A stretch of DNA of 64,000 nt from Campylobacter sputorum subsp. sputorum. Its GTDB lineage: Bacteria > Campylobacterota > Campylobacteria > Campylobacterales > Campylobacteraceae. Numbering within the stretch: the first letter of the stretch is position 1; every line of letters begins with the position of its first letter. Location: the NCBI RefSeq assembly GCF_008245005.1, contig NZ_CP043427.1, forward strand, positions 620,001 to 684,000, in the 5' to 3' direction. Under the pieces are notes generated by a model. It did not search any database and was not told where the DNA came from. It saw only the letters and a list, made by a program, of their open reading frames with translations. Made by a program: the position numbers and the translations under genes. Shown here in pieces: positions 17,230-51,301 of this stretch.

Positions 17230-18159
17230 ATGCACGGTTATAAAATTTTTTCTGGCAATGCGAATTTAGAGTTTTCTAAAAAGATTTCAAAATACCTTTC
17301 TTTGCCTTTGAGTGAAGCTAATATAAAAAAATTTAGTGATGGCGAGATAAGTGTGCAAGTTGGTGAAAGTGTAAGGGGTAAGGATGTGTTTGTTATACAG
17401 CCAACTTGTAGTCCTGTAAATGTGAATTTAATGGAACTTTTGGTTTTAACAGATGCACTAAGAAGAAGTAGTGCAAATTCTATAACTGCTATTGTGCCTT
17501 ATTTTGGCTATGCGAGACAGGATAGAAAAGCCGCTCCTAGAGTGCCAATTACAGCAAAACTTGTTGCAAATATGATGCAAGCAGCTGGCATAAGTAGAGT
17601 TGTAACTATGGATTTGCACGCTGGACAAATTCAAGGTTTTTTTGATATACCGGTTGATAACTTATATGGTTCTATTTTGTTTACAGAATATGTTAAAAAT
17701 AAACATTTTAAAAATCCAATAGTAGCAAGTCCTGATATAGGCGGTGTTGCCAGAGCAAGAGCACTAGCAAAAAACTTAAATTTGGATATAGTTATAGTTG
17801 ATAAGCGTCGCGAAAAAGCAAATGAAAGTGAAGTTATGAATATAATAGGGGATGTAAATGGCAAAGATGTCATTTTAGTAGATGATATGATAGATACTGC
17901 TGGAACTATCGTAAAGGCAGCTTCTGCTCTTAAAGCTCGTGGTGCAACGAGCGTAATGGCTTTTTGTACGCATGCTGTTCTTAGTGGACCTGCTTATGAG
18001 AGATTGCAAAAAGGCGAGTTAGATGAACTGGTTATAACAGATACAATACCTTTAAAACAAGATTGCGATAAGATAAAGATTCTTTCAGCTGCACCGCTTT
18101 TTGCTGAAGTTATAAGAAGAGTTTATAATAACGAAAGCGTAAATAGCTTATTTTTATAA
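17230..18159 (+). CDS. prs: ribose-phosphate pyrophosphokinase
   Basis: This encodes 309 residues, the usual length of class I PRPP synthase. Motifs include FSDGEISVQVGESVRGKDVF near 35-54, YFGYARQDRK near 96-105, and the PRPP-binding loop VDDMIDTAGT near 217-226. It transfers diphosphate from ATP to ribose 5-phosphate, feeding the purine, pyrimidine, histidine and NAD routes, including the pur and hisG genes elsewhere in this window. A TAGAAT -10-like box lies near 17193. Confidence 0.96.
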   Translation: MHGYKIFSGNANLEFSKKISKYLSLPLSEANIKKFSDGEISVQVGESVRGKDVFVIQPTCSPVNVNLMELLVLTDALRRSSANSITAIVPYFGYARQDRKAAPRVPITAKLVANMMQAAGISRVVTMDLHAGQIQGFFDIPVDNLYGSILFTEYVKNKHFKNPIVASPDIGGVARARALAKNLNLDIVIVDKRREKANESEVMNIIGDVNGKDVILVDDMIDTAGTIVKAASALKARGATSVMAFCTHAVLSGPAYERLQKGELDELVITDTIPLKQDCDKIKILSAAPLFAEVIRRVYNNESVNSLFL

Positions 18160-18165
18160 TCAAAT

Positions 18166-18191
18166 TTAGAGTTTGCATATACAAACTCTAA
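18166..18191. terminator. bidirectional hairpin between prs and hpf
   Basis: TTAGAGTTTG, loop CATATA, CAAACTCTAA form a perfect 10-bp stem in the 38-base gap between the convergent prs and hpf genes. Position and symmetry fit a shared terminator, although no long T-run follows on the plus strand. Confidence 0.65.
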
Positions 18192-18197
18192 TATATC

Positions 18198-18725
18198 TTA
18201 GTATAATCCAAATTTACCATCTTTTCTTTTATATATTACTCTTAATTTTGCATCCATATCGTTAAATACAAAGAACTGATCAGTGCTATTTTTTAGTTTT
18301 TCTAGAGCCTCTTCTATCTCTAATGGTTTGTATAATTCAAGATCTATTGGAACTATTTCATCTGTATCTTCTATCTTTTCTTCGCTTACTTGTGCCACAC
18401 TTGCTTTTTGGTCATCTTTGTTTTTATGAGTTGTTATTTTATCGTGTTCTCTTCTTAAAACTTTTGATGCTCTCTCGCTTGCAAGATCAATAGCTGCGTA
18501 TAAATCCTTATCTTTTTGAGATATAACGATTGTATCTTTTCTTGCTAAATTTATAGCAAAATCTACATTGAAGCCTCTTTTATTTTTCTTTTCATCTGCT
18601 GATATAACGCATCTTATAGCAATGATATCAAGATTGTATTTTTCTAGCGATTCAAATGCATTTTCTATATAGTCTTTTATGGGTTTGGTAAGCTCAAATT
18701 GTCTTCCTACTATGCTTATATTCAT
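18198..18725 (-). CDS. hpf: ribosome hibernation-promoting factor, long form
   Basis: This encodes 175 residues. The N-terminal HPF/YfiA domain (about 1-95) starts MNISIVGRQFELTKPIKDYI and ends with a basic helix. A charged linker (about 100-125) connects to the C-terminal dimerisation domain (about 128-175) with FFVFNDMDAKLRVIYKRKDGKFGLY-type sequence typical of long HPF. Long HPF binds the 30S subunit and joins two 70S ribosomes into an inactive 100S dimer in stationary phase. AAAGGAG precedes the ATG. Confidence 0.92.
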   Translation of the reverse strand: MNISIVGRQFELTKPIKDYIENAFESLEKYNLDIIAIRCVISADEKKNKRGFNVDFAINLARKDTIVISQKDKDLYAAIDLASERASKVLRREHDKITTHKNKDDQKASVAQVSEEKIEDTDEIVPIDLELYKPLEIEEALEKLKNSTDQFFVFNDMDAKLRVIYKRKDGKFGLY

Positions 18726-18755
18726 ATTTACACTCCTTTAAATTTAATATATTTG

Positions 18756-18761
18756 ATTATA
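18756..18761 (-). promoter_or_regulatory. hpf promoter -10 box
   Basis: On the minus strand TATAAT lies about 30 bases before the hpf ATG, preceded by AT-rich sequence and no clear -35 box. It falls between hpf and the end of the pseudopilin cluster. Confidence 0.45.
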
Positions 18762-18779
18762 TCATAAAATTTAGAAAAA

Positions 18780-19295
18780 TTACGGGGTATTTTTATTGAT
18801 TGGCTTTGGTTTGATAGCTATCTTTGTAAAATTTAGCGGCTGAGTAATTCTTCTGTGAAATGTTATTGGCTCATTTGTTATATTTTCTGAAGTTTTTACT
18901 ACAATATCAATGATAGCAACTTGATATTTGTCATTTATTGGATTATTCTTGTCATCATAAAATATATTTATATCGCCATTATATGCTGTTTCGCAATCAT
19001 TTGGGAGATTATTTCCTATATATCTTATACTTACATTTATATTATATTGTGGATGTTTGTCATCTGGATATGTTGAGGTTATTTTATTTATGCAATTTTG
19101 ATTAAAATTATGAGCTTGTATGGCTAAGATAGCATGTTCTGCTGCACTTATGGCTAAAAGTTCAGCTTCTTCTCTTAGGTAAATATCTGAGCTATTTTTT
19201 ACGCTATTTGATGCTATGGATAAACTAAGCATCCCTATAGTTGCTATTAATACAACAAAAATTACTGCAGTAATAAGTGCAAAACCTTTTTTCAT
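18780..19295 (-). CDS. PilX/GspK-like minor pseudopilin
   Basis: This encodes 171 residues. The N-terminus is MKKGFALITAVIFVVLIATI: a short basic leader, Gly before the predicted prepilin peptidase cut, Phe after it and a hydrophobic helix (about 5-28). The conserved Glu at mature position 5 is missing (FALIT), as in PilX and GspK tip pseudopilins. A polar, Cys-containing globular part follows. Last gene of the cluster, overlapping the previous pseudopilin by one base (TAATG type). Likely role: a tip component of a type IV pilus-like fibre; this is inferred from family features and context. Confidence 0.75.
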   Translation of the reverse strand: MKKGFALITAVIFVVLIATIGMLSLSIASNSVKNSSDIYLREEAELLAISAAEHAILAIQAHNFNQNCINKITSTYPDDKHPQYNINVSIRYIGNNLPNDCETAYNGDINIFYDDKNNPINDKYQVAIIDIVVKTSENITNEPITFHRRITQPLNFTKIAIKPKPINKNTP

Positions 19296-20233
19296 TAATA
19301 AACCGCCTTTGTTTTACAAACTGTAAAGTCTATCTCGTCTGTATCAAGAGTTCTCATACATAATTTCATAACTATAACTCCGCTTTGTGTTTGTGTAAAT
19401 TTAAACAGACTAACATTTTGTGCTAGTAAGCTTTTTTGAGCTTTGTCGTGATTTATATCTTCCCAAGGTTGATAACCATAGTAAAGATATAAATCAAAAA
19501 TATTTTCACCGCTTTTTTGATTTTTATTTTTTTCTCCATAATCTTGTGTTTTTTCTGGAACTACCGCATAAGCTGTATTTAAAAGATAATACATATCACT
19601 TACTTCATTCATGCCATCTGGAATTATTATAGTGATATTATCATCATCTTTTATCTCTCCTGAAGCTATTTTATTATGCAATTTGTCTTTATATCCAAAA
19701 TCTTTTTTTATATCTGGTTTTTGATTTGTTATAAAAAATATACCAAATTTATCAGAATACACATTTTTTAAAGTATTTTTAAAAGTTTCATCAAATTTAG
19801 AACCAGGAGATGTGAAAGTTGTTTCATTTAATGCGGTTGGCTTGGTAAAATTTAAGTCAGAAACACCACTCCAGCCAACCTTGTTGTCTGTTTTGTGAGT
19901 TAAAATTTGAGTTTCATATGATTTGCCTATCCATTCTAGTGCGTATTTTTTATCATCTTCTGGTCTATCATCTTTTATAGATAGTATTGTATCTGTAAGT
20001 TTGTCGCTCTCTTTTTCAACAAGTCTTGCTATTTCAGATCCTTTTAGTCTATGGCTTAGCCTTTTTGAGATTTGTTCTAAAGCTATATCTGTTTTATACT
20101 CAAGCTCATTTATAGAGCGAGTGTGTATATAGTTTTTATATACATTTGCTAGTAAATCTGAGCTAATTAAAGCTAAAATTGCCATTATAACTATTACAAA
20201 TACAACTTCTACTAAAGTAAATGCTTTTTTCAT
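19295..20233 (-). CDS. PilW-like minor pseudopilin
   Basis: This encodes 312 residues. The leader MKKA is followed by FTLVEVVFVIVIMAILALI, a type III signal with Glu5 intact (Ala instead of Gly at -1). The large globular region (about 40-312) is hydrophilic. Length and order resemble PilW among the type IV pilus minor pilins. It lies three bases after the upstream pseudopilin and overlaps the next by one. The prepilin peptidase and assembly ATPase are not in this window. Confidence 0.78.
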   Translation of the reverse strand: MKKAFTLVEVVFVIVIMAILALISSDLLANVYKNYIHTRSINELEYKTDIALEQISKRLSHRLKGSEIARLVEKESDKLTDTILSIKDDRPEDDKKYALEWIGKSYETQILTHKTDNKVGWSGVSDLNFTKPTALNETTFTSPGSKFDETFKNTLKNVYSDKFGIFFITNQKPDIKKDFGYKDKLHNKIASGEIKDDDNITIIIPDGMNEVSDMYYLLNTAYAVVPEKTQDYGEKNKNQKSGENIFDLYLYYGYQPWEDINHDKAQKSLLAQNVSLFKFTQTQSGVIVMKLCMRTLDTDEIDFTVCKTKAVY

Positions 20234-20236
20234 ATG

Positions 20237-20959
20237 TTAATTTATCTCTCTTGTTATGATATGCGATGGTGCGACATTTGAGCTATAAGCTCTTAGGATT
20301 ATGTTTGTATCATCGTTTGTGCATTCGCCAGTTTTTACATTTTCTATAAAACAAGTATGTAGTTCTATTTGTTTGATATTTGTAGTATCTTTTGCTTGTG
20401 GTACGTTAAAGTTAAATTTAATATTTTTATCATCTATATAGCTATCATCTTTCAAATTATCATCCACATAGCTAACTTTAAATATAGTTTTTATAGGAAT
20501 TATAATATCTCTAACGCCTCTTTGATCGGTTGGATTTTCTATATTTAACTCAGTTTCATAATTATGAAGATGGTCTAATCCATCAAAATTTGCACTAAAA
20601 GCTGGAATGCTTGCTTGTTTATTTATGTAAGCATTAATTGGTAAATTTTGTCTAGTTTTGTTATTTTCGTAATCTTGTGTAAAATCTCCATCTTCTTTTA
20701 TAGCATTTTTTAAACCTTCTGCTGTGCTATTTGTTAATGTAACTCTAGGAAATATATCTGTTTCGTCCATAGAATTACTATCCCAAGGCATAGAAAACAT
20801 TAAATGCATTTGCATTTTAGATGAAAGTATGGCTTCTTGTTTTAATGCATGTAAATTTGAAATAGTGCTTTGTGAGATTATGGTCGGTATAGCAATCATA
20901 CTTAATCCCATTATAACTATGGCTAAAACCACTTCTATTATAGAAAAAGCTCTTTTCAT
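20237..20959 (-). CDS. PilV-like minor pseudopilin
   Basis: This encodes 240 residues from ATG 20959, whose A overlaps the TAA of the large protein gene; an in-frame TTG six bases upstream is less likely. The leader MKRA is followed by FSIIEVVLAIVIMGLSMIAI, with Glu5 present. The globular domain ends in a Cys pair region (LHTCFIENVKTGECTND) that may form a disulfide. It is tightly coupled to the 1672-residue gene, implying the proteins function together. Confidence 0.78.
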   Translation of the reverse strand: MKRAFSIIEVVLAIVIMGLSMIAIPTIISQSTISNLHALKQEAILSSKMQMHLMFSMPWDSNSMDETDIFPRVTLTNSTAEGLKNAIKEDGDFTQDYENNKTRQNLPINAYINKQASIPAFSANFDGLDHLHNYETELNIENPTDQRGVRDIIIPIKTIFKVSYVDDNLKDDSYIDDKNIKFNFNVPQAKDTTNIKQIELHTCFIENVKTGECTNDDTNIILRAYSSNVAPSHIITREIN

Positions 20960-23900
20960 TACCAAAATATCCTATTTGAGTTTTTATTTAAATTTTTATC
21001 AAATTTTTTTTCATCGTCTGTATCTTTCGTTCCTAATACTTTACCGACACTATTTCTGCCTTCGTCACTCTCAACTGAACCCACAGAACCATCTCCAAAC
21101 CATAGGTTTTCATTGTCTTTCATAAACTCTACATTAAATTTCTCATGATGTTTAAGATATGTTGGCGTTTTAAGTGTTATTGTGTCATCTTTTACATTAT
21201 TATTATCGGATTTTATTATTATATTGTGCGTAAAATCTTTTTTATCTAACGGATAGTATATATCACTTTTATCTGTATCTGTTTTTGTTCTAGTTTCACT
21301 GCTATTTGTTGCTTTAAATTCATAAATATCGCCATTAACTTGTCCTTTGTTTGCTGGTACATAATCAGGCGTTTTATACCAATCTAATATAATTGGCACT
21401 GTGTTATTATAGCTTGTGTTTATATCAAATATATCGCAATTTTGTGTGCAATATGTTGTGTAATATACGCTGTTTTTCACGCCACTTCGTAATCCTTTTA
21501 CATCTTTTGCATAAGCACTTCCGTAGTAAAACAGTGCACTTTCATTATCGTCGTGGTTATAATAATGGATATTAATGTTTGTAGGCATATTAAAAGGATT
21601 TTCTATATTTTTATCTTTAATTTCTAGTCTATTTTCATCAGATACAAGCCAAAGTGAATTTGGGATAAAATCTCTTATAAAAATTTTTGTAGGATTCATA
21701 GGATTTTCGTTTCTTTCTAGGTTAAATCCTATCATAACTGAAGTTGCTCCAGTTCTTTTAAGAGGTTGTTTTTTGTAATCTTTGTCTATAAATTCAATGC
21801 TATCATTAAAGAAATTTTTGCTTATTTGCACTAAAGCACTTTTATCATCAAATTTATCATTTGTTTTGTCTGCAAAAGTAAATTCATCCCACTTTACATC
21901 ATTTCTTTTTACATCAGTTGTTTTATATGAATTTCTATCTATATTAAAATTTCTCTTTTTATCTTCATTTATATCTGTATCAGTTGTATATGGCGAGATT
22001 ATTTTTATGAAACATTTTTCTGTTGTGTTTGTGTCTTTACAAAAATTTTGTGAGCTTTTTTGATTATAAAAGCCAACCACATTAAAAGAAATTTTATCAG
22101 TATCTAGGAATTTTTGTTTATCTAAAGGTATACTTTCTTCTGTTAGCATATCCCTTATATCTTTTGATAGTAAATTTTCTTCTTTATATTTAATGTAGTT
22201 TTTAAATTCATCTTTTTGGTTTATAACTTTTTCTAAATGAGTATTTTCTTTGTAATTATCATAAGTTGCGTTAAATGCTGTTATGGCATTTTTCATTAGT
22301 GATGTTTCTTTTGAAGAAAGCGTTTTTACATCATTGTTTTGGATATTGTCTTTATATTTAAAATTTCTATCCCCAATATAACTTAAATTTAAAATTATAT
22401 CTTTTGCATAGCAACTATTTGTAAAGTTAGGATAAGAATTTCCATTTCCATCAGATGCAGCTATGATTAGCTGAAGTTTTGCACTCATTTGATTTTCTAT
22501 GTTTATTTTTGGACTTTTGTTATTATACGTTTTATTTACATCTTGCATTAAGTCATTGTAGTATGTAAAACCGCCTTTTAATGACTCTTTGTTTATATTG
22601 CTTTGATTTAAAATTCTAGTTACATATATATCAAAATTGTTTGGAATAAATTCAATATATTTTGGATTTAATGCTTGTATGCTACAATCTACAAGCTCAT
22701 CTGCAAATTCATTATTTATCACAAAATCTTTAGATGCATCTTGATCAGCTATATCCGGTCTGCATTGATAACCATAATTTTTTAAGTTTTGAGATAAGGC
22801 TATTTTTTCTTCAGCAGTTAATTTGTTTTTATTATTCTTGTAAATATTTATGAAATTTATAGCTGTCCAGTATGGATCTTTGAGTAAATTTTCAAATTTC
22901 ATAACATTGTCATATTTAAGATATAAATCTTCACTATCATTTATCAATATCCCATTTATTTTTAAATTTTCTTTTACACTGTCTGTTTGATTTTGATATT
23001 TTATTTGACTATCTCTAAAAGTTATTCTTAGGATATCAGGATCAATAGTGCTATCTTTTCCTAAAGATAAATTTTCATCATTTTTGCAATTCATAGAGTT
23101 GTTTGTTATGGCTCTTAAAAGCGTGAAGTTGTGAAATGGCTGTGTTTTATATGTGGTTTCTATGAGATTATAATAGTTTGTATTTTTTGCGTTTGCTAAT
23201 GTGTATGTATATTTGTCACCTTGTTTATTTGATATATTTAAAGCTATAGGTGTGGCATTTATTTTATAAATACTGCTGGAATTTAGTATAGTTGTGCTAT
23301 CTAATATGCTTACATTTGCATCGTTTATAAAAAATTTAATAGGCATATTTATTTTGTTATTGTCATCTGTTTTTATTAGTTCTTTCGTGTAGTCTTTATT
23401 TGGTTTTATTGCCAGCTTTGGTGTTCTTTGTGGAAAATTTGTATAATCTATTTCTTCGAAAGTCATATAAAATCCAGCCGGTTTTATAGCAAATGGATTG
23501 TTTGAGCTTTTTATACCTTTTAAAATATCTTCTGATTTTATAGATAAATCATAAGCGTTAAAATACATATGACTTGTTATATTGTTGGATGTAAAATTCT
23601 TATGCAAAACAAAACAAGCTGCGGTAACATCATTCGGATCTGTTGTTAGCTTCAAGTTATCTTTGCCATTAGAATATACTAATTCTTCTTTTTCAACATT
23701 ATTTATCGGCAAGTTTCCTGTTGTAAGATTTTGCTCATTAGAATATAGATTGTTTAAATCATCTTCATTAAATTTATTGCCTAGTTTATATTTAAGAAGT
23801 TCTTTATCATCTATTTTGTTGTAAGTTACATATACATTTTGTGATTGAGTAGACGGGTATGCATTTCCTGCTTCTACTTTGGCACCTATTACGCAGTATT

Positions 23901-25977
23901 CATACCCGATTTTATTACTATTTTTTTCATAAGGTTTGAGCGGTGCACCGCCTGCTATTTTTGTCCTAAGGGGGCTGTTCCAAAGCCAGTTAAAATCGTA
24001 TTTTGCTTTATTTGCTTTGTGGGCTTCGGCAAATTGTCTTTCTACAACTTTTAGCGTATATGTCTCTTGCTTTGATGAGCCACAATCAGTTGATTTTATG
24101 CTTACATTTGCAATTTGATGAACATTTGAGTATCCATATCTTTTTGTTGAAGCCGCAAAAGCTACTTTAAATTTTCCAGATTTTGGCAAATAAGATGTTA
24201 TATCTTGTTTGTCTATAATTATTTTATCATCTCTGCTTACGCTTATAAGTGTATTTCCTGTGGTAGAATCAAGTGTTATTTTAAATCTCCCAGCATGATA
24301 ATCATCTGTTTTTGGATTACCATCGCCTAGTTTGTATGTTTGCTTACTTGTTATAAATGGTGCATTTTGATTTACAGATCCTCTTATGGTTATAGAGTTA
24401 GAAAGATTATTTTGACCGCCACTTAGACCATTAGCATTTTGTGCGAAATCTTGTGCTTGATGCAAGCCTATTGCTAGTAAGCCATTTGTAAATTTTGTAT
24501 TTTTAGATAAATAACCCATGCCTGCTAGAATGTCTATAGAATCAGCATTAGCTAGTCTTGGTTTATCTATGCTAGCATCATATAAAATAACAGCCATTCC
24601 AATACCGCCATTCTCTTGTATCTCTGTTGCAATTCCAACTTTTGGCAGTATTCTCTCTCCGATATAATAAGTATTGGGCTGTTTTTCTCCACCCCAAGCA
24701 TAATAATCAAACTCTATAATGGTTTTACTTTTTGAAATATTTATACCCTTACCATTTTCTCCTAAACTAATATTTGCTATCCCTCCAATCTTACTTGGTC
24801 CACCGTGATTTATAGTAAGTCTTTTTGTGCCGTTGTTTCTTGCTTCTGTATTCCAATCAATTTTTATATCCAGCTTATCCACCATTGCATCGTAATCATT
24901 GTAAGGAGAATATTTTCCAGCTGATGTATAAGCACTTATTCTTTTCCATCCAAATCCTGCTGGAGACTTATCTTGCGGATCTTCTTTTATACATTCTCCT
25001 ACACCCATCTTACTGACTATTTCTATTCTTGTTGAATCATATGGTTGTTTTAAAATTGCTCCTATTTCTTCGTCTGTTGTGCTTTCTATAGATTTTGATG
25101 GTGTTATTTGTGAGATTTGGATATTAAATGTTTTTCTAGTATTGGTATTGTTGTAATTTTTTAAAATTTCTACTTTTAATATCGCTTTTGTTTCGTTTTT
25201 TGGTATTGTAATGGTATCGTTTAAAATTTTATAGTCTATGTTGTTTTTTGCTGTTTCATCTTGAACATTAAATTTAATTGTTATATCATCTTTTAGTTGA
25301 GTGCTTAAATTTATAGGGATTTCTATAATTTCGCTACCTGTGCTTGGTTCATTTAGTGAGTAAAAATTTTTTTCAAATGATGCTTCTGCTATTTTATATG
25401 GGAATAAGTTTTCTGTTGGGACAGGTTCATTAGGAATGTTTGGATCTACATCTTTAAACATTAAACTAAAATATCTATCATTACAAGCAGGTGCTCCTAC
25501 AAATGTATAAATTTTAATTTTATGTAATCCTGGACTTAGTTTATCTAATTTAACTCCATTTTTAGTATTTGGACCCCATGCACTATTATAAGACCAAGCG
25601 CCTGACTTGTCTAAAGGATGACCACAACCACGCGAATTTGTATCAAATTTTGTATTTTCATCTACTGCCACTCTTGTGGTTACAGTTCCTCGATTAATTA
25701 TTAATTGTTTATTTTCTGGTATATTAATATATCTGCTCCACACAATACCCCAATTGTCATTTCTCTTTACAGCATTTGTTGAGCCAATACCGTCAAAGGG
25801 AGCACATATTGGTTTGTTGTCCCAAGAAAAATTTATAGTTGGATCTATTGTTGTTTTAAGTTCTTCTCTATCTGCGCAATATGGATCTTTTGTATAATAA
25901 ATTCCTTTTAATCCTATTGCAAAGCTATTTATAGATGTTAAAAAAAACATAAGAAAAAAAAACATAAATTTATACAT
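20959..25977 (-). CDS. giant secreted protein with Calx-beta and MshQ-like lectin regions, putative pilus-tip adhesin
   Basis: This encodes 1672 residues from ATG 25977, which has AAAGGA seven bases upstream; the upstream in-frame extension has no ribosome site. Signal peptide 1-20 ends at SFA. Residues 25-180 look like a PA14-type beta domain with paired Cys. Residues 195-310 have a Calx-beta pattern (FYSLNEPSTG, NNIDYKI). Residues 415-630 follow the lectin segment of MSHA protein MshQ: GGIGMAVILYDASI, then NGLLAIGL and NSITIRGS. The rest is long, polar and Cys-containing without a visible membrane anchor. First gene of the pseudopilin operon, like PilY1 or MshQ next to minor pilins. Adhesin role is inferred. 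Confidence 0.75.
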   Translation of the reverse strand: MYKFMFFFLMFFLTSINSFAIGLKGIYYTKDPYCADREELKTTIDPTINFSWDNKPICAPFDGIGSTNAVKRNDNWGIVWSRYINIPENKQLIINRGTVTTRVAVDENTKFDTNSRGCGHPLDKSGAWSYNSAWGPNTKNGVKLDKLSPGLHKIKIYTFVGAPACNDRYFSLMFKDVDPNIPNEPVPTENLFPYKIAEASFEKNFYSLNEPSTGSEIIEIPINLSTQLKDDITIKFNVQDETAKNNIDYKILNDTITIPKNETKAILKVEILKNYNNTNTRKTFNIQISQITPSKSIESTTDEEIGAILKQPYDSTRIEIVSKMGVGECIKEDPQDKSPAGFGWKRISAYTSAGKYSPYNDYDAMVDKLDIKIDWNTEARNNGTKRLTINHGGPSKIGGIANISLGENGKGINISKSKTIIEFDYYAWGGEKQPNTYYIGERILPKVGIATEIQENGGIGMAVILYDASIDKPRLANADSIDILAGMGYLSKNTKFTNGLLAIGLHQAQDFAQNANGLSGGQNNLSNSITIRGSVNQNAPFITSKQTYKLGDGNPKTDDYHAGRFKITLDSTTGNTLISVSRDDKIIIDKQDITSYLPKSGKFKVAFAASTKRYGYSNVHQIANVSIKSTDCGSSKQETYTLKVVERQFAEAHKANKAKYDFNWLWNSPLRTKIAGGAPLKPYEKNSNKIGYEYCVIGAKVEAGNAYPSTQSQNVYVTYNKIDDKELLKYKLGNKFNEDDLNNLYSNEQNLTTGNLPINNVEKEELVYSNGKDNLKLTTDPNDVTAACFVLHKNFTSNNITSHMYFNAYDLSIKSEDILKGIKSSNNPFAIKPAGFYMTFEEIDYTNFPQRTPKLAIKPNKDYTKELIKTDDNNKINMPIKFFINDANVSILDSTTILNSSSIYKINATPIALNISNKQGDKYTYTLANAKNTNYYNLIETTYKTQPFHNFTLLRAITNNSMNCKNDENLSLGKDSTIDPDILRITFRDSQIKYQNQTDSVKENLKINGILINDSEDLYLKYDNVMKFENLLKDPYWTAINFINIYKNNKNKLTAEEKIALSQNLKNYGYQCRPDIADQDASKDFVINNEFADELVDCSIQALNPKYIEFIPNNFDIYVTRILNQSNINKESLKGGFTYYNDLMQDVNKTYNNKSPKINIENQMSAKLQLIIAASDGNGNSYPNFTNSCYAKDIILNLSYIGDRNFKYKDNIQNNDVKTLSSKETSLMKNAITAFNATYDNYKENTHLEKVINQKDEFKNYIKYKEENLLSKDIRDMLTEESIPLDKQKFLDTDKISFNVVGFYNQKSSQNFCKDTNTTEKCFIKIISPYTTDTDINEDKKRNFNIDRNSYKTTDVKRNDVKWDEFTFADKTNDKFDDKSALVQISKNFFNDSIEFIDKDYKKQPLKRTGATSVMIGFNLERNENPMNPTKIFIRDFIPNSLWLVSDENRLEIKDKNIENPFNMPTNINIHYYNHDDNESALFYYGSAYAKDVKGLRSGVKNSVYYTTYCTQNCDIFDINTSYNNTVPIILDWYKTPDYVPANKGQVNGDIYEFKATNSSETRTKTDTDKSDIYYPLDKKDFTHNIIIKSDNNNVKDDTITLKTPTYLKHHEKFNVEFMKDNENLWFGDGSVGSVESDEGRNSVGKVLGTKDTDDEKKFDKNLNKNSNRIFW

Positions 25978-26097
25978 TTTTATCCTTTTTTTAGTTTTAT
26001 AATTATGAGCTAAATATAGCATAATTTTCCATAATATATAATAAAACAAGTAGGTTAAGAATTTTATATTTTGTTTTAATATTTATAGTAAATAAGA

Positions 26098-26103
26098 TAT
26101 AAT
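26098..26103 (+). promoter_or_regulatory. promoter -10 box for the 26131 gene
   Basis: TATAAT lies 28 bases before the TTG start, after a T-rich stretch, with AGGAG at 26120-26124. The gap to the divergent giant protein gene therefore holds promoters for both directions. Confidence 0.5.
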
Positions 26104-26130
26104 ATACAAAATGCTATTTAGGAGAAAAAT

Positions 26131-26847
26131 TTGAAAAAAATTTTAGTTTTGCTTATTTTGTGCGTAAATTTTATATTTGGTGCTGATTTTTTTATGAAAG
26201 AAGTTGATTTAACTTTGCTAGATGTAAAGGATGGTTACGGAACTATTGCCGATAGTGATGATTTTGTTGTAGGTAGTAGCGGCGTTGTGATACATAGTTT
26301 TGATTCTCATAATGAAAGCATTATAGCTAGAGCTAGTGTTGTAGAAAAAAATGGTCAAACTGCTAAAATTCAGTTTGAACTTTTTTCTATGCTAGAACAA
26401 AATGCACTACCACTTCCAGGAGTTTTACCTGAGGCTGGAGATCATGTGAAATTGAATTTTTTATATTCTAGATCTTTAATAGTAGCTCCAAATAAAGAGA
26501 TTTATGATGAGGTTACAAATAGTTTTACAAGATTAACTTTTATACATCCAGATATAGTAGCTTCTTATCTAAACTATGAATTTAAGCCAAATCCAAGCAG
26601 AGATGATTTTAGAAAGATGTGTAATAAAAATTTAGCAGGTCTTATATTTTTTGCATTAGAAAATGAGAGTGTTTTTGTAGATTGCGGAAGTTTTAAGGTT
26701 ATAAAAAGGTTTAATAGTGGTCATATAGGTTATTATAATTTACCTTTTTATTCAAGAGTTGGCAAGATTGATACTGTTTTTTGGGATTTTTCAAGTGGAC
26801 AGATCAATAACTATGATGCTTATTATAGAAGTTTATTGAAAGAGTAA
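26131..26847 (+). CDS. plasminogen-binding N-terminal domain protein (PgbA/PgbB-like)
   Basis: This encodes 238 residues from a TTG start with AGGAG seven bases upstream. A signal peptide (1-18, ending FGA) precedes a domain that matches the N-terminal part of Helicobacter PgbA/PgbB: MKEVDLTLLDVKDGYGTI, then VGSSGVVIHSFD and ASVVEKNG. The Helicobacter proteins also carry a long Lys-rich plasminogen-binding tail that is absent here, so plasminogen binding should not be assumed. It lies two bases before glcD, an arrangement I recall from other Campylobacter. Confidence 0.75.
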   Translation: MKKILVLLILCVNFIFGADFFMKEVDLTLLDVKDGYGTIADSDDFVVGSSGVVIHSFDSHNESIIARASVVEKNGQTAKIQFELFSMLEQNALPLPGVLPEAGDHVKLNFLYSRSLIVAPNKEIYDEVTNSFTRLTFIHPDIVASYLNYEFKPNPSRDDFRKMCNKNLAGLIFFALENESVFVDCGSFKVIKRFNSGHIGYYNLPFYSRVGKIDTVFWDFSSGQINNYDAYYRSLLKE

Positions 26848-33653: not shown

Positions 33654-34246
33654 TATTTCTCCTTAGTTAGGTTTTGATCATACAAACTTATATTATCATC
33701 TAGAGTTAAATTTTGATCATCTAAATTTTGTATCTTAACATTAAAATCATCTTTTATTTTGTCTATATTTATGTTCATTATCCATTTTCCGCATTCAAGC
33801 ATTGTTTCATATACTACACTTCCTCTAAGAATTGGTTCTATTTTTGAATTTAACACATATATATTTGCAATAACAACAAATATTACAGAAAATATCAAAA
33901 AAACTTTAGCACAACCAAATACCAGACCGCCAAGTCTATCAAAAAAGCCTAAAGCGCTTGCTCTTAGAAATTTTGTAAGTATATTTCCAACTATCAAACA
34001 AGCTAACCAAAAAACTATAAATGAGGCTATAAAAGCTATAAATGATAGCATTTGTTTATTGTCTGTTTGATACAAATATGTGCTTATAAGTTCTTGTGCG
34101 CCATCAAATCTAGTGGCAAATATAATACCGCCTATTATACCGATTAGTCCAAAAATTTCTTTTATAAGACCATTTATAGCACCTTTTATGCCAACTAGTA
34201 TAATTATACCAAGTATTATTGCATCAAACCAATTAACTACGCTCAT
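33653..34246 (-). CDS. CvpA family membrane protein
   Basis: This encodes 197 residues. Four membrane segments lie in the first 130 residues, with the CvpA pattern [20 protein letters not shown] at the start and the [10 protein letters not shown] motif near 104-113. A charged C-terminal tail follows. CvpA in E. coli supports colicin V production and envelope homeostasis; its biochemical role here is unknown. Start overlaps the pilT stop by four bases. Confidence 0.87.
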
Positions 34247-35328
34247 ATATTTTCCATTAATGCTTTTAGTTCATTTGGGCTTGTTGAGTATCTCAAAGCT
34301 ATCTCTTTTGATATTTCTCTTGCTTTTAATAATTTTATCATATTTTGAGTTTGTGTTACCATTCCGCTTTCGATTTGACCTAGTTGCATTTGAGAATAAA
34401 TTTGATGAATTTTATTTTCTCTAATCAAATTTGAAATAGCTGAGTTATTTATAAGTATCTCATGGCAAACAGCTCTACCTTCGCCAATTTTTGGTATCAA
34501 TGCTTGAGATATTACAGCCGTAAGCGATATAGAAAGCATACTTCTAATTTGAGCTTGTTTCCCAGCTTCAAAGCTATCTATTATTCTGTTTATTGTCTGC
34601 ATAGCTGAGTTTGTGTGAAGTGTTCCAAGGACTAGATGCCCAGATTCAGCTGCTGTTATAGCTATGGAAATAGTTTCTTCATCTCTGAGCTCGCCTATTA
34701 GAATGACATCTGGATCTTGTCTTAGGGCGTATTTTAAAGCATTTTTATAATTATGTGTATCTGTGCCAATATTTCTAAGTGAAAAAACAGATCTTTTGTT
34801 TTTATGTATAAACTCAACTGGATCTTCTATAGTTATTATATGTTTTCTATATTTTAAATTTATCTCATTTAACATAGCTGCTAGTGTGGTGGATTTTCCA
34901 GATCCTGTTGGACCACTAACTAAGATAAGTCCTTTTTCTCTTTTGATGACATCTTTTAAAATGTTTGGTGCCTTAATATCATCTAAAGAAGGTATTTCTA
35001 ATGGAATTATACGAAAGGCTGCTGCCATATTACCATTTCCGGTATAATAATAATTACCTCTAAATCTACCTATATTAGGAAGTTCTATGGCAAAATCAAG
35101 CTCTTTTTGCTCTTCAAGTATGCTTCTTTGTTCATCTGAAATTAATGTATAGCAAAGGTGCTGTATATCTTTTCCATTTAATACTTGTAAATCTAGAGGT
35201 TTTAATGTCCCATCAACTCTAATTTGTGGTTCACTATTAGATACTAAATGCAAATCACTTGCTCTATGAGCCACAACTGTTCTTAAAAGTGTTTCAACAT
35301 CAAAGTCTAAGCTGAGTTTTTCTTCCAA
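34243..35328 (-). CDS. pilT: PilT-type retraction ATPase
   Basis: This encodes 361 residues from a TTG start with AAAGGAT about eight bases upstream. The N-terminal PAS-like domain (about 1-100) has RASDLHLV. The ATPase core has Walker A GPTGSGKST near 138-146, the Asp box IITIEDPVEFIH, Walker B LRQDPDVILIGELRDEET and the His box GHLVLGTLHTNSA. The PilT-specific AIRNLIRE motif is seen as AISNLIRE near 299-306. It powers pilus retraction at the inner membrane. Its location between gatC and cvpA is not the C. jejuni order. The extension ATPase and platform protein are elsewhere. Confidence 0.92.
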   Translation of the reverse strand: MEEKLSLDFDVETLLRTVVAHRASDLHLVSNSEPQIRVDGTLKPLDLQVLNGKDIQHLCYTLISDEQRSILEEQKELDFAIELPNIGRFRGNYYYTGNGNMAAAFRIIPLEIPSLDDIKAPNILKDVIKREKGLILVSGPTGSGKSTTLAAMLNEINLKYRKHIITIEDPVEFIHKNKRSVFSLRNIGTDTHNYKNALKYALRQDPDVILIGELRDEETISIAITAAESGHLVLGTLHTNSAMQTINRIIDSFEAGKQAQIRSMLSISLTAVISQALIPKIGEGRAVCHEILINNSAISNLIRENKIHQIYSQMQLGQIESGMVTQTQNMIKLLKAREISKEIALRYSTSPNELKALMENI

Positions 35329-50740: not shown

Positions 50741-51301
50741 ATGAAAAAAGGTTTTACTATGATTGAGTTGATCTTCGTGATCGTTATTTTAGGTATTTTA
50801 GCAGCAGTTGCTATCCCAAGACTTTCAGCAACTAGAGATGATGCTGAGGCTGTAAAAGCAGCTACAAATCTTTCAACTATTATAAGTGATTTAGGTGCTT
50901 ATTATACTTCCCAAGGGGCTTTTTCTAGTGAGTTATCGCAAATGACAAATGTTCAACTTACAGCAACACAAAAGGGTGCTGATGATGGCGATGGTGCACA
51001 AGGAAATTTGGCAGCAGCTGGAATTGATTGTCTTAAAGTTGTATTACATAAAGAAAATCCTATAAATGAAACTGTAGTTAATAGTGGTAAACCAGCTTAT
51101 ATAGCAGTTACAGCTCTAAATACCGACAAACCTATGTGTAAAAAAATTCATAGTATGGGATCAATTGATAAGATTTTAAAAGGTAAATTTAGTTATTCAG
51201 GTGTCACAACTGCTAAAACGAGTAGCAAAGCTGCCGTAATAGGCAATGTTGAAAGTAATTTAGGAGAGTTTGCAGTAAGTGGAATGGGTGTTAAATTCTA
51301 A
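50741..51301 (+). CDS. major-type pseudopilin / type IV pilin-like protein
   Basis: This encodes 186 residues. The type III signal MKKG is followed by FTMIELIFVIVILGILAAVA with Glu5 present and a long N-terminal helix. The globular part is Ala/Ser/Thr-rich with two Cys (in GIDCLKV and KPMCKKIHS) that could form the D-loop disulfide. AAGGAG lies eight bases before the ATG and a strong terminator follows, suggesting a well-expressed single gene. Either the main pilin of the type IV pilus-like system or a pseudopilin of the Campylobacter DNA uptake (Cts) system; sequence alone cannot decide. Confidence 0.82.
   Translation: MKKGFTMIELIFVIVILGILAAVAIPRLSATRDDAEAVKAATNLSTIISDLGAYYTSQGAFSSELSQMTNVQLTATQKGADDGDGAQGNLAAAGIDCLKVVLHKENPINETVVNSGKPAYIAVTALNTDKPMCKKIHSMGSIDKILKGKFSYSGVTTAKTSSKAAVIGNVESNLGEFAVSGMGVKF

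Follow-up and report, generated by a model that had tools for sequence, protein, structure and literature searches.

What is the role of a minus-strand operon in Campylobacter sputorum subsp. sputorum that encodes one giant secreted protein together with three pilin-like proteins? The operon lies in a 64,000-nucleotide stretch of contig NZ_CP043427.1 (assembly GCF_008245005.1, positions 620,001 to 684,000), which is called the window below. Based on the open reading frames (ORFs), the minus-strand block runs from 25977 to 18780 and holds four genes in series. The giant (20959..25977) is a secreted protein of 1672 aa, of a divergent MshQ/DUF6701 type and a proposed tip adhesin, followed by the minor pilins V (20237..20959, 240 aa, PilV/GspI/MshD-like), W (19295..20233, 312 aa, PilW/GspJ/MshO-like) and X (18780..19295, 171 aa, PilX/GspK/MshP-like). 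V and W are named by order and size, X partly by weak matches. The junctions giant/V, V/W and W/X are -1, +3 and -1 bases when V starts at its ATG; an alternative TTG at 20965 gives a 7-base overlap with the giant. An earlier note on this DNA had proposed a single operon of a 1672-residue giant and three pilin-like proteins, and its ORFs and junctions were confirmed. The block is not a chance arrangement, since it recurs in related genomes. The four genes probably form the tip and priming complex, with an exchangeable head, of this genome's type IV pilus of the mannose-sensitive haemagglutinin (MSHA) type. The parallel with the MSHA/MshQ cluster and the pilus-tip role, both suggested in the earlier note, are supported by evidence from the protein family, synteny and co-occurrence.

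The base of the giant protein

In an alignment of 27 giants from the family (30 were aligned; the close relatives L052, L056 and L065 were omitted), the N-terminal half varies, and the C-terminal half is conserved and includes 14 invariant residues, of which six are Cys. A profile built from 25 giants outside the window's genus gives the window giant 91.1 bits, compared to 15.0 bits for the best of 500 shuffles. The match defines a base at residues 793-1672 (20962..23601, minus strand) and spans 793-1262 and 1353-1672, the profile not covering 1263-1352. With a second profile, made from deep Campylobacterota giants, the window protein scores 22.8 bits and the giant of its sister genome 20.3, while no other ORF of the window exceeds 5.5 bits and none of 200 shuffles exceeds 2.8. 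The same profile gives 103.5 to 260.4 bits on 28 giants outside the window's genus. In hhalign, the family bases (the window's included) and the deep Campylobacterota DUF6701 giants are related at 100% probability with an E-value of 3.4e-58.

DUF6701 (PF20419) is the domain that we take MshQ to carry. Within the phylum, 17 of 298 genomes have a PF20419 match at E 0.001, 16 of them over the Pfam cut-off. In a gammaproteobacterial metagenome-assembled genome (MAG; locus L141), a 1122-residue protein follows four pilin-like genes and scores 350.6 bits with DUF6701. Read by eye from its layout and neighbours, this appears to be an msh cluster, and its protein matches the deep giants moderately (94.6%, E 7e-8). 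By sequence, then, the window giant is best described as a divergent relative of MshQ/DUF6701 rather than a Pfam member, and the roughly 1000 residues that the earlier note left unassigned form an MshQ-type, DUF6701-like domain.

The base ends in a conserved tail, NSNRIFW (20962..20982, minus strand), found by aligning the giants. Its terminal Trp is invariant in all 27 aligned giants and is kept in L195, where the giant does not adjoin V. It is absent in four of 19 deep giants (L115, L116, L119 and L123) and in four others (L128, L135, L141 and L194). The idea that the Trp simply results from the giant overlapping the start codon of V was rejected, as Trp persists at gaps of +4, +1 and -1 and in the unlinked L195 giant.

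The minor pilins

W scores 23.5 bits with N_methyl, above the cut-off of 21.2, and V 18.0 bits, below it. In both, the prepilin signal includes Glu5. X was recognised by eye as prepilin-like (KKG/FALIT), but Glu5 is missing, as it is in PilX and GspK. Two Cys near the C-terminus of W are invariant across 32 aligned rows. The NCBIfam models GspI and GspJ returned no row at E <= 1 on V, W or X, and GspK gave 15.3 bits on X, well below its cut-off of 130. Judged on their sequences, V, W and X are homologous to pilins in general. Among the export signals listed earlier, the Sec-type signal of the giant and the N_methyl signal of W stood, V fell short of the N_methyl cut-off, and X was recognisable by eye without Glu5. 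Of the models run on the four proteins, N_methyl was over its cut-off on W, Calx-beta stayed below its own on the giant, and PilY1/PilC, PF20419, lectin and GspI/J/K were negative.

Gene order in related genomes

A plain search of the 153 family genomes, which we take to be Campylobacteraceae, found a full-length relative of the giant in the sister genome only. Nine other family genomes gave weak partial matches, and there V, W, X and hpf stand in the same order. Next, 50 loci were read, 10 chosen by giant matches and 40 by W matches. The giant lies directly before V in 29, and where a script measured the junction (28 loci), 22 overlap by 7 bases. No giant precedes V in 18 loci (six of genus g2 and 12 of g4), another gene does so in one (g6), and two end at contig edges. 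The giant was found in 12 of the 14 g4 genomes, its ORF being 1703 to 3010 residues long; its distance to W is about 10 kb or less in nine, large in two, and in one the two genes are on different contigs.

Outside the family, among 18 deep DUF6701 regions, the giant directly precedes V-W-X in 10, V-W-X is nearby in two and absent in six. A contig scan with a short pilin motif gave 14 loci. Eight were tested, and a DUF6701-type giant was present in six Campylobacterota loci plus L141. In L130 (Sulfurospirillum), V-W-X follow a 667-aa protein without a match. Two further arrangements were seen. At L114:4561-14623 three giants stand in tandem, one of them 720 aa and the other two long, and no pilin gene was noticed in that 18 kb region. 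At L191:2271-9207, in a g9 genome, a same-family giant lies close to a pair of pilin genes and to a gene read as priA.

The probable pilus machine

The whole genome encodes one T2SSF platform protein, in an operon for proteins of 504, 215, 144, 533, 579 and 413 residues. The 533-residue protein is a secretin matching TIGR02519 (MshL) with 258.9 bits (cut-off 250.2). These machine genes lie elsewhere on the chromosome than the tip operon. The link between the two comes from a Hydrogenimonas MAG (L135), where the order is giant, V, W, X, an H-like pilin and then homologues of the machine genes: the 504-residue (E 8.5e-17), 215-residue (4.2e-6) and 144-residue (9.6e-6) proteins, the secretin (2.1e-75) and, with two ORFs in between, the ATPase (3.8e-109). 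Because this order runs from tip to machine, the four tip genes are tied to the machine.

Of two PilT-family ATPases in the genome, one is in the window (34243..35328, minus strand; TIGR01420, 440.3 bits, cut-off 319.1); its co-occurrence with the tip genes suggests that this retraction ATPase belongs to the same pilus system. A GspG-like pilin at 50741..51301 (plus strand; 44.3 bits, below the cut-off of 88.85) may be the major pilin of this machine. The product of another pilin gene, at C1:607962 and 235 residues long, is GspH-like, below that model's cut-off, and matches the pilin located after X in two Sulfurovum MAGs. Further pilins are also encoded in the genome.

Distribution across the family

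Occurrence in the 153 genomes was tallied manually, with counts that ignore kinship, at cut-offs that we chose (W E <= 1e-8, PilT E <= 1e-90, giant E <= 1e-3). W and the giant base each occur in 88 genomes and PilT in 101. W and the giant occur together in 80, W and PilT in 86, the giant and PilT in 86 and all three in 78, and any two agree in 136-137 of the 153. The earlier note had named a failure of the four genes to co-occur in related genomes as the result that would speak against it; such a failure was not observed.

Genus g5 (49 genomes), presumably the jejuni/coli/lari group, lacks the giant, W and PilT at these cut-offs, and 47 of its genomes have an MshL-type secretin match. Below the W cut-off, 15 g5 genomes give matches at E 9e-5 to 1e-3, and all 49 match the PilT query at E 1e-30 to 1e-36. 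We read these weak matches as other pilins and a GspE-type ATPase.

The variable head

The giant starts with a Sec-type signal peptide, MYKFMFFFLMFFLTSINSFA, recognised by eye at residues 1-20 (25918..25977, minus strand). Residues 200-292 (25102..25380) form a Calx-beta-like segment with a sub-threshold Pfam match (21.7 bits, cut-off 27); the same segment of the sister genome reaches 28.0 bits. When residues 1-662 were searched against PDB chains, the sole row was the Calx-beta of NCX1, at E 0.75. The Calx-beta domain predicted in the earlier note is thus weak, lying below the cut-off in the window giant and just above it in the sister genome. Its PA14-like and lectin domains were not recovered: Pfam and PDB-chain sequence searches gave no match for either in the window giant, and lectin-type domains appear in the heads of some distant relatives. 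Residues 310-642 (24052..25050), the supposed lectin region, have relatives confined to the same genus among the 573 ORFs of the fetched loci, and the PDB-chain search returned no match for this segment nor for residues 20-196.

The heads of other giants differ in content. Among 27 family giants, Calx-beta occurs in five and PA14 in three (E <= 0.01), and in six additional giants Pfam found nothing at E 0.01. The heads of 19 deep giants carry DUF11 in five cases, Calx-beta in three and H-type lectin in two, with laminin-G, CUB and sialidase-type domains once each. The Hydrogenimonas giant also has laminin-G (77 bits).

In six g3 genomes the giant changes faster than its neighbours, and the head most: over 15 pairs, identities are 86-96% for W, 80-97% for V, 33-73% for heads and 47-98% for bases. 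Faster evolution of the head was considered as a general rule and rejected. It is contradicted by the window's own pair (head 88%, base 82%, comparable to W at 84%) and by G019-G054, where head identity (90%) exceeds base identity (72%). Of the 84 pairs with W identity >= 50%, 58 have lower identity in the head than in the base.

Genome G033 (L186:2985-11372) has two complete tandem giants, one of 1334 residues and one of 1400, and both open with a signal-like start. Their final base differs, the preceding 1939 bases are identical, and identity then ends abruptly; the heads are unlike. The pair looks as though different heads had been joined to a shared base by recombination. Another genome, G050, has the giant-bearing block twice on one contig (L189 and L190), about 211 kb apart with similar neighbours; with a listed contamination of 6% for this genome, one of the copies may be artefactual.

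Proposed mechanism and alternatives

In the proposed mechanism, V, W and X would assemble in the inner membrane into an initial cap-like unit. No pilin would sit above X, which would account for its lack of Glu5. The giant would be exported by Sec and dock on the V/W/X cap through its DUF6701-type base and conserved C-terminal tail, to be carried at the fibre end through the MshL-type secretin. There, its N-terminal head, Calx-beta-like plus unassigned modules, might bind a surface or glycan, after which PilT would pull the cell towards the bound surface.

A number of observations weigh against this mechanism. A correction of 99.7 bits for composition has already been taken off the 91.1 bits of the base; the top single stretch gives 58.1, and one of the 500 shuffles reached E 2e-4. 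The Pfam model PF20419 has no match on the window giant; the same search had no match in any control genome either, and a missing Pfam match is weak evidence in these giants because hmmscan, through the HMMER filters, drops the DUF6701 of L113, which scored 81.4 bits in the genome search. The tie to MshQ is transitive, via the deep Campylobacterota, since a direct comparison of the gammaproteobacterial protein with the family's giants was not significant. A structure model of the base from seven sequences had a mean pLDDT (predicted local distance difference test) of 31.5 and was not used. Comparisons with MshD/O/P-type pilins (W 95% over 249 columns, V 95% over 65 columns) lacked control pilins and indicate pilin kinship only; X against an MshP-like pilin is weak (23%). 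No giant was found in eight of the 88 W genomes, including all four g6 genomes, which all have W, and eight of the 88 giant-bearing genomes have no W at the cut-off. In g2, 13 of 16 genomes have the giant, and none of the six loci read places it next to V. Inspection by eye, confined to the machine operon, showed no MshM-like gene, MshN or MshF. Finally, in V. cholerae the loss of mshQ does not stop pili from forming and retracting (PMC7096442). In favour of the mechanism, the same paper terms MshQ a putative adhesin and reports that mshQ loss lowers surface MSHA. MshQ is listed as of unknown function in PMC9815625.

The four genes could instead be the tip of a DNA-uptake (Cts-like) machine, with the giant catching DNA or a partner surface mainly for transformation. 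The single T2SSF platform protein fits this, as the C. jejuni machine of this type takes up DNA (PMC10046745), and a pilin gene here precedes a gene read as priA, as cj0683 does in C. jejuni. However, g5 has neither giant, W nor PilT at the cut-offs while retaining the MshL-type secretin; if g5 is the jejuni group, DNA uptake does not need these three genes. The lectin-type domains in the heads of some relatives also argue against a DNA-catching tip, and we regard this explanation as unlikely. Still less probable is a type II-like pseudopilus with V, W and X as its pseudopilins, which would secrete the giant as a free substrate and have it as no fibre tip. Gene order and X do resemble GspI/J/K (the GspK score being far below the cut-off), and the giant has a signal peptide. 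Against this stand the co-occurrence with the tip genes of PilT-family ATPases, which type II secretion systems are not known to have, the MshL-type secretin in the genome, and the membership of the giant's base and tail in a family found beside pilin genes.

A tentative history, which we put at slightly below even chances, is that the ancestral family pilus was retractable, of MSHA type and tipped by a head-exchangeable adhesin. The jejuni-type lineage would have kept a bare DNA-uptake machine and lost tip and retraction motor together. Some species would swap heads by recombination on the shared base, as suggested by the tandem copies of G033, which have 1939 identical bases at the 3' end and unlike heads.

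Neighbouring genes

The next gene after X, 54 bases beyond it, is hpf (18198..18725, minus strand), encoding a ribosome hibernation factor. It is a common neighbour of X in other loci too and probably stands outside the pilus system. The single minus-strand terminator-like site listed for 18100-26200 is located past hpf; with four sites on both strands against 2.5 expected, this is weak evidence. On the other side, 26131-26847 matches PF15436, the N-terminal domain of the plasminogen-binding protein PgbA, with 242.5 bits and lies in divergent orientation to the giant.

Significance and comparison with known systems

The four-gene operon was not described in the titles and abstracts found, subscription journals being mostly outside the coverage. 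According to the C. ureolyticus genome paper (PMC3758288), MshL, MshM, PilT and a pseudopilin are annotated there and motility is ascribed to type IV pili. In the C. showae genome paper (PMC6567213), pilus genes there are called remarkable and earlier C. jejuni pili are attributed to an artefact. Two other papers report mshL in a C. jejuni lineage (PMC9490421) and, in rumen-wall Campylobacteraceae, a gene-specific sweep over pilO and mshL (PMC9894753); the link made here between a Cts-type DNA-uptake machine and the MSHA pilus agrees with that sweep. Pili in Campylobacter are disputed, and here a defined gene set is available with a predicted tip adhesin plus a retraction motor. The tip gene set is widespread in the family and missing from one 49-genome genus, so that its role can be tested by deletions.

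The closest likeness is to the MshQ system of Vibrio and Shewanella MSHA pili, with a large exported protein that has a variable head and a DUF6701-type base beside minor pilins, and with an MshL-type secretin in the same genome. The window's system differs in that its giant is first in the operon, not last, and below Pfam detection, its head is Calx-beta-like plus unassigned parts, and the machine genes are elsewhere on the chromosome. PilY1/PilC with PilV-PilW-PilX is the priming tip complex of Pseudomonas, Myxococcus and Neisseria, and it resembles the operon in its minor-pilin trio plus giant secreted protein, which would work like it. An identity with PilY1 was rejected, no PilC/PilY1 domain matching at E <= 1 (filters on), and the giant belongs to a different family. 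The Cts machine of C. jejuni (CtsD secretin, CtsE, CtsF) is the same kind of machine as that of the window's genome. In contrast to the latter, g5, taken as the jejuni group, combines its MshL-type secretin with the absence of giant, W and PilT at the cut-offs.

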